Origin: Pseudomonadota bacterium
GTDB lineage: Bacteria > Pseudomonadota > Gammaproteobacteria > Steroidobacterales > Steroidobacteraceae
Direction of reading: 5' to 3'
Length of the DNA: 43,137 nucleotides
NCBI GenBank assembly: GCA_021809525.1
Contig: JAKAYU010000006.1
Span: forward strand, 1-43,137
Shown in pieces: positions 28,981 through 39,017 of this stretch. The position numbers and the translations under genes are program-made. Each line of letters begins with the position of its first letter. The stretch's first letter is position 1. The notes beneath the pieces are model-generated. The model saw only the letters and a list, made by a program, of their open reading frames with translations, had not been told where the DNA came from and did not search any database.

Positions 28981-30066
28981 TCAACCGACGAGCGACTTGC
29001 CGTGCCGCACGAACGGCGGTTTGACAACCCGTGCGGGCAGGAGTTTGCCGCGCACGTCGACCTGGACCTGCTCGCCCGCCGCGGCCGGAATGCGCGCCAG
29101 TGCGATGGAGCGCTCGAGCGTCGGAGAGAAGGTCCCGCTGGTGATCTCGCCCTGCCCGGCGGGGCCGGCGAGCACGCGCTGATGGGCGCGCAGCACGCCG
29201 CGCTCCTCGAGCACCAGCCCGACAAGCTTGCGCTCGATGCCGCGTACGCGCAGGGCCTCGAGCGCCTCGCGGCCGATGAATGCGCGACCCGCGCTCAGCG
29301 CGACCGTCCAGGCGAGACCCGACTCGAGAGGATTGGTGCTCTCGTCCATGTCGTTGCCGTAGAGGTTCATGCCGGCCTCCAGACGCAGCGTATCGCGTGC
29401 CCCGAGGCCACAGGGGGTGACGCCCGCCGCGCCGAGGGAGTGCCACAGCGACTGCGCCCCGCCCGCCGGCAGCATGATCTCGAAGCCGTCCTCCCCGGTG
29501 TAGCCGGTGCGGGAGATGAACCACTCGTCGATCTGCGCTGCGCAGAACGCCCCGAGCGCGAGCGCGCGAGCGGCTGCGGCGCTCGAGAGCAGCCCCGCCA
29601 CGCGCGCGCGCGCCTCGGGGCCCTGCACGGCGAGCATTGCCAGGTCGTCCCGCTCGCGCACGGTGACGCCGAACGGCTCGGCATGCCGGCGGAACCAGGC
29701 GAGATCCTTATCGCGGGTGCCGGCATTGACCACGGCGCGGAACCACCGCTCGCCGAGGTAGTAGACGATGAGGTCATCGATGACCCCGCCGCGCTCGTTG
29801 AGCAGGCAGCCGTAGAGCGCCTTGCCGGGCGTGGTGAGCTTGCTCACGTCGTTGGCGAAGAGCTTCAGCAGGAACGGCCGGACCTGATCGCCCTCGAGAT
29901 CAACCACGCACATGTGCGATACGTCGAACACGCCAGCGGCGCGCCGCACGGCGTGATGCTCGGCGATGAGCGAGCCGTACTGCAGGGGCATGTCCCAGCC
30001 GCCGAAATCGACGATGCGCGCGCCGGCGGCCTGATGGACGGCAAATAAAGGGGTACGTCGTGCCAC
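28981..30066 (-). CDS. gcvT: Glycine cleavage system T protein (aminomethyltransferase)
   Basis: GcvT releases ammonia from the lipoyl-bound intermediate and forms 5,10-methylene-THF, the donor that ThyA uses. The 361-residue protein has [30 protein letters not shown], the SHM segment ([13 protein letters not shown]), [38 protein letters not shown] and [18 protein letters not shown]. The start is GTG at 30066, five bases after a strong GGAGG; this lies just beyond the terminator of the upstream glycine riboswitch. It heads the gcvT-gcvH-gcvPA-gcvPB cluster and probably a longer transcript. Confidence 0.96.
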
Positions 30067-30082
30067 AGATCCTCCAGGAAAC

Positions 30083-30111
30083 AAAAAAAGCGGCAGGTTG
30101 CGACCTGCCGC
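30083..30111 (-). terminator. Riboswitch-controlled intrinsic terminator upstream of gcvT
   Basis: On the minus strand a perfect 9-bp stem (GCGGCAGGT / ACCTGCCGC, loop CGCA) is followed by seven T residues. It sits between the second glycine aptamer and the gcvT Shine-Dalgarno, so it is the expression platform: glycine binding would be expected to prevent the stem and allow read-through into the gcv genes. Confidence 0.9.
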
Positions 30112-30310
30112 CCCTCTGTCCGGTGACCTGAGAGATCGGGCGCCTGGCGCCTCTCCCCTTCGGTGGGCCGGCGCCATGCGCCTGCCGCTCTCCAGAGACC
30201 CCGCGCAGAACCTTTCGGCCTGCGCAATCTGCCGTTCGTGTGCCTGAGCGTTTCCGGGCGGAATTTGCGCCTTCGGCGTTCCGGCCTGCCGGCCGGACCC
30301 TCTCCGTGCA
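30112..30310 (-). promoter_or_regulatory. Tandem glycine riboswitch (two aptamers)
   Basis: Two copies of the glycine-aptamer pattern lie on the minus strand. Aptamer 1 is about 30310-30225: GGAGAGGG, GCCGAAGGCGCAAA and CGCUCAGGCACACGAACGGCAG. Aptamer 2 is about 30198-30112: CUGGAGAGCGG, CACCGAAGGGG, AUCUCUCAGGUCACC and GGACAGAGG. These match the conserved GGAGAG, CCGAAGG and CUCAGGU...GGACAGAG elements. The terminator follows at once, then GGAGG and the gcvT GTG. Glycine riboswitches in front of gcvT are established activators of glycine catabolism. Confidence 0.92.
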
Positions 30311-30332
30311 GATTGATTTTCGGAGTTTGCGG

Positions 30333-37221: not shown

Positions 37222-37417
37222 AGCGTCGCCTGCGGTGTTCGACACGCGGGCCGGGTTACCTCGGACCCTAATTGAAACACCCATGGGACATCAGGGCTTG
37301 CCGGCAGAATTGTGCAAGTCCGCCCTGAGCGGAAAGCCTTACCTGCCGCAGTCCGTCCCACTTGTTGCTCCGGTTCGAGAGCAACGGTTCGCACCGGCAC
37401 AGGCGGGTGACGCTCCC
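37222..37417 (+). ncRNA. ssrS: 6S RNA
   Basis: 6S RNA mimics an open promoter and sequesters sigma-70 RNA polymerase in stationary phase. The interval lies between zapA and the 5-FTHF cyclo-ligase gene, its normal place. The closing stem is AGCGTC-GCCTG (37222-37232) with CAGGC (37400-37404) and GACGCT (37409-37414). Next to it, GTGTTCGACACGCGGGCC resembles E. coli GAUGUUCGCAAGCGGGCC, and GGAAAGCCTTACCTGCCGC resembles GAGAAGCCUUAAAACUGCG. The length of about 196 nt is typical (184 in E. coli). Exact ends are inferred from the stem. Confidence 0.88.
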
Positions 37418-38075
37418 TGATTCCAGCCTACAGCAGGTCCGCGCGCAGTTGCGGACCGCGCTGCGGCGGGCGCGCCGGGGCATCCCTGCCGCCGAGCGGA
37501 CCCGCAGCGCGCGCTGCATCGCACTCCTCGCCGATCACATGCAGCTGCTGCGCGCGCAGTGGCGCATCGGCCTTTACCGCTCGCTTCCCGAGGAACTCGA
37601 TACCGCCCCGCTGCTCGCGCTCGCCCGCCGCCGCGGCTGCCGCGTGTATCTGCCGCGCATCGGCGCGCAGCCGTCGGCAGGGTCGATGCAGTTCGTGCGG
37701 CTGAGCGCGCGCCTGCAGCGCAATCGCCTCGGCATCCCCGAGCCGCTCGGGCCCGCGCTGCCGAGCGCGCGCATGCTCGATATCATCTTCGTCCCGCTCG
37801 TCGGATTCGATCGCCGCGGCAACCGACTCGGCATGGGCGGCGGTTATTACGATCGGGCACTGGCGTTCGCGCGCACGTGCGCCGCCGCGGACCGACCACT
37901 GCTCATCGGACTCGGCTACGCACTGCAACGGCTCGAGCGCATCGAACGCGCTGCGCACGATGTGCCGCTCGACATGGTGATCACAGAGCGCGGCGTCATC
38001 CGTTGCGCCGGCACGCGCGCCGTTCAGCGAGTAACGGGCGCATGGCGCATCGATCGCGCAGCGTGGCATCTGTGA
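37407..38075 (+). CDS. 5-formyltetrahydrofolate cyclo-ligase
   Basis: It converts 5-formyl-THF to 5,10-methenyl-THF with ATP (YgfA/Fau/MTHFS). The 222-residue product has an N-terminal LRTALRRARRGIPAAERTRS, YRSLPEELDTAPLL, RLSARLQRNRLGIPEP and the active-site block IFVPLVGFDRRGNRLGMGGGYYDRALA. The first usable start, GTG at 37407, falls inside the 3' strand of 6S RNA; a TTG at 37449 is an alternative that would free the RNA. Co-transcription with 6S RNA is known for the E. coli homologue. Folate recycling links it to the gcv, thyA and folA genes of this window. Confidence 0.94.
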   Translation: MTLPDSSLQQVRAQLRTALRRARRGIPAAERTRSARCIALLADHMQLLRAQWRIGLYRSLPEELDTAPLLALARRRGCRVYLPRIGAQPSAGSMQFVRLSARLQRNRLGIPEPLGPALPSARMLDIIFVPLVGFDRRGNRLGMGGGYYDRALAFARTCAAADRPLLIGLGYALQRLERIERAAHDVPLDMVITERGVIRCAGTRAVQRVTGAWRIDRAAWHL

Positions 38076-38106
38076 CCGTCCGTTAGCACATCCTCTAATG
38101 ACTTGC

Positions 38107-38134
38107 TTGTATTTTTGTTTCGCATGTATATACT
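38107..38134 (+). promoter_or_regulatory. Promoter of the 17-residue peptide gene
   Basis: TTGTAT (38107-38112) and TATACT (38129-38134) with a 16-bp spacer, inside a distinctly AT-rich patch (38085-38135) of otherwise GC-rich DNA. Expected start near 38141, about 30 nt before the ATG. Confidence 0.6.
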
Positions 38135-38170
38135 CGGCCCTCGGACTAACCCGTCAACTGGAGAGCCAAC

Positions 38171-38224
38171 ATGGCGAAGGCAAAGAAGAAGGCCGCGAAG
38201 AAGAAAGCTGCGAAGAAGAAGTAA
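38171..38224 (+). CDS. Tiny Lys/Ala-repeat peptide gene (MAKAKKKAAKKKAAKKK)
   Basis: A complete 17-codon frame, ATG to TAA, encoding MAKAKKKAAKKKAAKKK: 11 lysines and five alanines built on a KKKAA repeat. This is the composition of the tails of bacterial histone H1-like and AlgP-type proteins, but with no other domain. Translation looks real: GGAGAG lies five bases before the ATG and a promoter is about 35 bp further up. The two full repeat units differ at synonymous sites (AAG/AAA, GCC/GCT), which argues for selection on the peptide and not a simple DNA repeat. A strong hairpin starts five bases after the stop. Binding to DNA, RNA or acidic proteins is likely from charge alone. It could also be the stub of a longer H1-like gene that varies in repeat number. 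Confidence 0.65.
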   Translation: MAKAKKKAAKKKAAKKK

Positions 38225-38228
38225 GGCC

Positions 38229-38266
38229 TTTCGCTCGGCGGCCGCTTCGGCGGCCGCCGAGTGAAA
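38229..38266 (+). terminator. 17-bp hairpin with UUCG loop after the peptide gene
   Basis: Arms 38229-38245 and 38250-38266 pair over 17 bp with one G-U, closed by a TTCG tetraloop (C-G closing pair). The core CTCGGCGGCCGC / GCGGCCGCCGAG is perfect. There is no T tract behind it, so it may stabilise the short mRNA 3' end or act as a non-canonical terminator. Confidence 0.6.
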
Positions 38267-38283
38267 CAAAGTTCGATGCCCTC

Positions 38284-38310
38284 GTGCCCGCGCAAGCGGG
38301 CACATTCGTT
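38284..38310 (+). repeat. GNRA-capped palindrome followed by T-rich stretch (REP-like or terminator)
   Basis: GTGCCCGC (38284-38291), loop GCAA, GCGGGCAC (38296-38303): a perfect 8-bp stem, then ATTCGTTTT. It lies 21 bases before rpiA. The core resembles the dispersed CCCGCG-AAGCGGG palindromes of many Proteobacteria, and with the T-rich tail it could also end the peptide transcript. Confidence 0.5.
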
Positions 38311-38330
38311 TTCAGACCCGGGAAAAAGCC

Positions 38331-39017
38331 GTGACAGACACCACCGCCGCAGGCTCGAAAGACACCGACGCCCACCTGAAGAAGCGCCGCTGCGCCGAAG
38401 CGGCGCTGCGCTACGTCGAACCGGGCAGCGTGCTCGGCGTCGGTACCGGTTCAACCGTCGGTTACTTCATCGAGGCGCTTGCGGCGCGGCCCGGGCTGAT
38501 CCGCGCGGCCGTCTCGAGCTCCGAGGCGTCGAGCCGCCTGCTGAGCGCCGCCGGCATCCAGATCCTTGACCTCAATGAGGTGGCCGGCCTGCATCTGTAC
38601 ATCGACGGCGCCGATGAGGCGACCCGCGCGCGGCACCTGATCAAGGGCGGCGGCGGCGCGCTTACGCGCGAGAAGATCGTGGCGAGCGCGGCGGAGCGGT
38701 TCGTGTGCATCATCGACGACAGCAAGCTGGTCGAGACGCTGGGAGCCTTCCCGCTGCCGGTCGAGGTCATTCCCATGGCCCGCTCGCTGGTGGCCCGCGC
38801 GATCGAGGCGCGCGGGGGACGACCGGTATGGCGGCGCGGCACCGTGACCGACAACGGCAACCACATCCTGGACGTGCACGGACTGTCGATCACCGATCCG
38901 CCAGCGCTCGAGCGCGAGCTCGGTGAGATCACCGGGGTGGTGACCGTCGGATTGTTCGCAGCGCGCCCCGCGGACCTGCTGCTCGTCGGCACCGCAACGG
39001 GAACCGCGACGATCTAG
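38331..39017 (+). CDS. rpiA: Ribose-5-phosphate isomerase A
   Basis: RpiA interconverts ribose 5-phosphate and ribulose 5-phosphate in the pentose phosphate pathway; ribulose 5-phosphate is also the substrate of Rpe, encoded 3 kb downstream. The 228-residue protein (219 in E. coli) has [56 protein letters not shown] with the catalytic Asp/Glu/Lys region, and [23 protein letters not shown]. The start is GTG at 38331, eight bases after GGGA. rpiA near the ygfA-ssrS-zapA block also agrees with E. coli order. Confidence 0.96.

Follow-up and report, generated by a model that had tools for sequence, protein, structure and literature searches.

Introduction

The closest described systems are proteins built from lysine-rich repeats. 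Hc2 (HctB) of Chlamydia contains lysine-rich pentamers, measures 165–237 residues with strong length variation, and is reported to bind both DNA and RNA, its affinity for RNA being higher than that of Hc1 (passages of PMC2848022). A bpH1 knockout in Bordetella is reported in the same passages to grow like the wild type. In Pseudomonas aeruginosa, AlgP joins a 124-residue N-terminal domain to a C-terminal tail of proline-containing KPAA repeats; according to passages of PMC9239181, peptides made of KPAA repeats bind DNA in vitro, and polyphosphate granules are spaced by AlgP with its tail. Polyphosphate is also described as binding polylysine stretches (passage of PMC12345225).

The genomic surroundings studied here have a described counterpart as well. 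The ZapAB-SsrS-FAU1-EVE neighbourhood, found with RpiA, has been interpreted as a growth-mode switch, and the passages of PMC7641849 on rpiA, histone, lysine and ssrS, covering 12 of 13 such places in the text, name no lysine-rich gene at the locus. In the open-access literature on H1-like proteins, Lys-rich proteins, microproteins and the surroundings of ssrS, fau and rpiA, no free Lys/Ala peptide like the one described below was among the matches listed.

We analysed a small unit within a stretch of 43,137 nucleotides from a member of the Steroidobacteraceae (hereafter, the window). Its locus has zapA, 6S RNA, fau and rpiA in common with the neighbourhood above. The peptide that it encodes resembles Hc2 and BpH1 in its Lys/Ala-rich pentads and in the strong length variation of its relatives, but these measure 14–26 residues in the window's family instead of the chlamydial range. 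The AlgP tail is likewise a Lys/Ala repeat, but AlgP has a helical N-terminal domain and KPAA units, whereas the window peptide amounts to a bare tail with no N-terminal domain and no proline. The algP gene sits at another locus. With fair probability, we consider the unit to be a gene that stands on its own and encodes a minimal histone-H1-like polycation.

Results and Discussion

A small complete unit lies between fau and rpiA

Read directly from the sequence, the unit is complete and spans positions 38107–38312, between fau and rpiA (Table 1). Gene order around it is zapA, 6S RNA (37224–37413, 63.1 bits), fau (ending at 38075), the unit and rpiA (38331–39017), the names zapA, fau and rpiA being our reading of the translations. 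GC content falls locally to 42–45% over 38070–38159, against 62–80% over 37500–38069, which is the AT-rich island noted in an earlier sequence-only reading of this DNA. That reading had also proposed a promoter with a 16-nt spacer, a Shine-Dalgarno sequence and a 17-residue ATG–TAA frame; all were found, although a consensus promoter scan returned no promoter at the site. The strong hairpin that it placed after the stop codon is real but has no T-run, and the terminator-like element is a second hairpin that the reading lacked; the predicted end of the transcript therefore moves to this second hairpin.

Table 1. Features of the unit, with positions in the window.
Feature	Position	Strand	Evidence
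Promoter: TTGTAT (38107–38112), 16-nt spacer, TATACT (38129–38134)	38107..38134	+	Sequence; TATACT nearly invariant in an alignment of 68 sequences
Conserved 5′ leader with CGGACTAACCCG (38142–38153) and Shine-Dalgarno GGAGAG (38160–38165)	38135..38170	+	68-sequence alignment; K-rich frames of other families recovered by a leader-only profile
17-residue Lys/Ala peptide gene, MAKAKKKAAKKKAAKKK, TAA at 38222–38224	38171..38224	+	Identical peptide in 19 units; 16 or 17 residues in 38/38 readable same-genus relatives
AAGGCC, codons 7–8, arm 1 of a putative mRNA stem	38189..38194	+	Present in 52/53 units
GGCCTT just 3′ of the stop, arm 2 of the putative stem	38225..38230	+	GGCCTT in 46/53 units; GGCC near the stop in 51/53
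Hairpin 1, 12-bp stem counted (a few outer pairs besides), no T-run	38234..38261	+	37 sequences: pairing kept in 99.5% of cells, both sides changed in 4/12 pairs
Hairpin 2 (38284–38303) with T-rich tail ATTCGTTTT, terminator-like	38284..38312	+	Pairing kept in 100% of cells over 8 pairs, both sides changed in 2 of them

Most of the genus has TTGTAT or TTGTAA as the upstream hexamer of the promoter, and other families have a different one. GGAGAG ends 5 nt 5′ of the ATG at 38171. Few parts of the unit are as well conserved as the leader motif CGGACTAACCCG, which could be a binding site or an element of the start region. In the window's own genome, TATACT followed after 3–10 nt by GGACTAAC occurs at one site, and a DNA search for a paralogue returned only the site itself and its own palindrome.

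The gap between fau and rpiA is 256 bases in the window. Among the listed distant loci with rpiA identity below 69.5%, many have fau ending about 700–990 bases before rpiA, which leaves space for an extra gene; an EVE-domain gene would fit the surroundings in the passages of PMC7641849.

The 17-residue frame is conserved throughout the genus

We located the place through rpiA, searching 80 genomes (own among them), of which 70 gave a match, together with 80 named loci; 60 upstream regions were then fetched. A frame of 16 or 17 residues was present in all 38 same-genus relatives with a readable upstream region, the outcome of a search of the fau–rpiA interval that the earlier reading had put forward as a check. 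The same-genus set numbered 48, of which 39 were fetched, one of them cut off (L105); the other nine fell outside the count, seven having no rpiA match and two having rpiA at a contig edge. Once equal flanks were collapsed, 53 units remained, 19 with 17, 32 with 16 and 2 with 15 residues. One of them (L083) differs from the window, so far as it could be read, solely in having a truncated flank and is a separate unit for that reason.

The 19 units of 17 residues, the window among them, encode an identical peptide by nine coding sequences, with 0, 0 and 4 variable sites at codon positions 1, 2 and 3. In the 32 units of 16 residues (23 coding sequences) the corresponding numbers are 2, 1 and 12, while the expected synonymous fraction of random change is 0.23. 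Such a distribution over codon positions indicates selection on the peptide. Because the same peptide appears in 19 units with nine different coding sequences, the frame is more than chance, and conservation rules out a chance frame. Two other frames over the site, a 78-residue plus-strand frame and an antisense Phe/Ala frame, were set aside because the third-position pattern belongs to the ATG–TAA frame. With frame, Shine-Dalgarno sequence and peptide all kept in relatives, the unit is, judged by comparison among genomes, a conserved gene, and the self-standing Lys/Ala peptide gene first proposed from one sequence holds.

The same leader precedes long H1-like proteins in other families

We built a sequence-only model (R1) of promoter, leader and first codons from 68 sequences; it extends 15 bases into the coding sequence, and the sequences it was trained on include several long loci. 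Within the order, R1 matched 237 genomes out of 296; a class sample gave 20 of 369 and a phylum sample 2 of 398, own genome counted in each. The window's family accounted for 88 matching genomes, with one miss among the misses listed; 39 further misses in the order seem, by sort order, to lie outside that family. A K-rich frame followed in 108 of the 109 loci read behind the leader, one of which (L241) is partly masked by N. The exception is L191, where the match precedes a frame reading like rpsB; at L293, the sole phylum-sample match besides own genome, the next frame is not K-rich either. That these two matches precede other genes counts against a minimal H1-like polycation.

The frames form a size series. 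In the window's family outside the genus, 51 loci (of 66 matched genomes) give 14–26 residues, one being cut by a contig end, and the common 21-mer consists of M followed by four A(A/T)KKK units. Behind the leader in other families, and in Gammaproteobacteria beyond the order, the frames are mostly 58–201 residues long, with H1-like Lys/Ala/Arg repeats. One family (f15) has both, short frames of 20–24 residues in five genomes and long ones of 86–165 in four, and five named loci of unassigned family (L028, L033, L035, L039 and L072) have 24–30 residues. Upstream of rpiA in other families, too, stand longer Lys-rich frames with a promoter and leader resembling those of the short genes.

From 42 rows of the window's family, stripped of coding bases, we made a profile of the leader alone and ran it on 47 outside loci, most of which had come through R1 and 12 through rpiA synteny, not the leader. 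It gave 33 matches at E ≤ 1 and none at that threshold in the other 14 loci; letter-shuffled sequence gave one match. All 26 matches under 0.02 were followed by a K-rich frame, and six of the 12 rpiA-synteny loci were among them; one weaker match (L184) fell outside the range that was read. Leader homology is thus strong inside the order but weak beyond it. As Lys/Ala repeats can be convergent, the homology rests on leader and position. Because the same leader precedes H1-like repeat proteins of 58–201 residues in order and class, the 14–26-residue peptides of the window's family are miniature counterparts of H1-like proteins under a shared promoter and leader, in keeping with the likeness to H1-like and AlgP tails that the earlier reading had drawn.

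A short Lys-rich frame followed by hairpins, the second terminator-like, and lying upstream of rpiA might instead be a regulatory leader peptide, in which translation of the Lys codons would control termination before rpiA. We regard this as highly improbable. The alanines are fixed as firmly as the lysines in the 17-residue clade, and the same kind of leader precedes the proteins of 58–201 residues. In addition, rpiA is not a constant partner, because it was found in 8 of the 19 leader loci of the class search whose flanks were fetched, while fau was found in 15; we know of no link of rpiA to lysine supply.

Constraint at the RNA level

Of the 20 pairs in the two hairpins, 6 have changed on both sides, and none of 500 shuffles scored as high; covariation was computed on 37 of 52 prepared rows, with 15 (near-copies and the most divergent) left out beforehand. 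Third positions of the peptide gene were identical to the window at 278 of 288 sites (96.5%, 18 relatives), against 339 of 524 (65%, 17 relatives) at the K/A codons of rpiA. Controls from 16 chosen genomes, a set not exactly that of the peptide gene, gave 96 of 136 (71%, 14 relatives) for rpmH, or 186 of 221 (84%) over all identical residues of its codons 2–17, and 139 of 182 (76%, 13 relatives, three fragment loci left out) for rpsU. That third positions are more constrained here than in rpmH and rpsU suggests that the peptide is not all that is conserved, and counts against a role as a polycation pure and simple. Because of this excess, the covarying hairpins and the capacity of codons 7–8 to pair 3′ of the stop, an added RNA-level role is possible.

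The putative pairing across the frame joins AAGGCC to GGCCTT. Both are missing in L121, and in L201 and L232 AAGGGC is accompanied by GCCCTT. Conversely, L045 keeps AAGGCC with GGCC missing, L250 combines AAGGGC with GGCTTT, and an arm of this kind is absent from several loci of the window's family. In five loci of that family (L199, L203, L210, L167 and L173), an apparent small local hairpin stands where GGCCTT would follow the stop, as though it had taken over from the pairing with the frame. Pairing between frame and post-stop sequence exceeded the shuffled mean in 74 of 84 units and lay within the best tenth of shuffles in 44, but the own post-stop sequence did better than a swapped one in only 50 of 84, a weak result. 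We regard this pairing as a suggestive second layer.

The transcript (about 38141–38312) might have a role as a structured RNA in addition to that of an mRNA, or even chiefly so, with the peptide possibly secondary. The third-position identity, the covariation, the paired changes across the frame and the excess over shuffles speak for such a dual function, as does a fold z of −4.25, although the latter is largely driven by the two GC-rich hairpins. The codon-position pattern and the length changes by whole codons nevertheless fit a peptide, and the frame reaches 201 residues behind the same kind of leader. With the weak swap result and the loci lacking an arm also against it, we judge a dual-function RNA unlikely.

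A likely non-specific polycation

The preferred reading, a minimal H1-like polycation, was compared with known protein families. The window peptide comprises 10 K, 6 A and 1 M in 17 residues, with no acidic residue and no proline. It contains the KKKAA spacing of the HC2 pentad repeat and, as a strongly basic Lys/Ala repeat without acidic residues, has the composition of a loose class of bacterial H1-like Lys/Ala proteins. The minimum for the profile scan being 20 residues, ten longer counterparts were scanned instead of the 17-mer. For eight of them neither Pfam nor NCBIfam gave a match at E ≤ 0.1. The remaining two, L127 with 33.1 and L138 with 25.8 bits, matched Pfam HC2 (PF07382) below its 40-bit cut-off. 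This outcome counts against an H1-like assignment, and since the longer counterparts fail the cut-off and an HC2 search of own genome gave no match, we do not file the peptide as HC2. By position and leader it belongs with the H1-like repeat proteins of the locus, and probably works like them.

HC2-like Lys-rich stretches occur elsewhere in the genome in nine of the 48 same-genus relatives (G007, G011, G021, G025, G029, G031, G035, G037 and G042), only that of G011 exceeding the cut-off.

The likely function is that of a non-specific polycation binding DNA, RNA or polyphosphate. Made in quantity, a peptide with 10 lysines in 17 residues and no acidic one would bind polyanions without sequence specificity, be it nucleoid DNA, RNA and/or polyphosphate, as its composition and the published H1-like proteins suggest. 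The bound polyanions would be neutralised and compacted, as H1-like tails are thought to do, and the few pentad-like units (AAKKK/ATKKK) that the window's family retained may suffice for charge neutralisation. The wild-type growth reported for the Bordetella knockout weighs against this reading.

The partner of the peptide might be the ribosome or RNA, the peptide then acting as an RNA chaperone or assembly helper and not as a nucleoid compactor. The higher affinity for RNA reported for Hc2 relative to Hc1 favours this. So does the GC-rich stretch directly 3′ of TATACT, which we take to resemble growth-rate-controlled promoters. We hold this version to be possible but rather doubtful.

Possible contraction from a longer repeat protein

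Contraction from a longer protein is the simpler reading of the size series, because the class-level counterparts are long. On the rpiA tree, four changes are needed between the short and the other states (quick method, 69 rows, 8 rows skipped); the contraction may have been a single event or a repeated one. More tentatively, and with doubts that outweigh our confidence, we propose that in the whole family, almost without exception, a much longer repeat protein has shrunk to a bare H1-like tail of 14–26 residues that exists as a protein by itself, while promoter and leader stayed the same, and that its mRNA is a conserved structured RNA pairing with its own coding sequence.

If this is true, the peptide would perhaps be the smallest histone-H1-like protein and its gene one of the smallest independently transcribed protein genes. 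A peptide of 14–17 residues under strong selection, with its own predicted transcription unit, comes close to the minimum size of a protein-coding gene and is too short for usual annotation. The size series behind one promoter and leader amounts to a natural experiment on how long an H1-like tail has to be. It suggests that a protein packing DNA or RNA may be reducible to little more than a charged tail, and the role of bacterial H1-like tails would become testable with a synthetic peptide. The leader model also provides a means of finding such genes by their regulatory sequence where the coding part is too short or simple for protein searches.

Elsewhere in the window, tandem glycine riboswitch aptamers (46.8 and 38.6 bits) lie on the minus strand at 30113–30318, just 5′ of a minus-strand gcvT-like frame (28981–30177), which is an ordinary arrangement.
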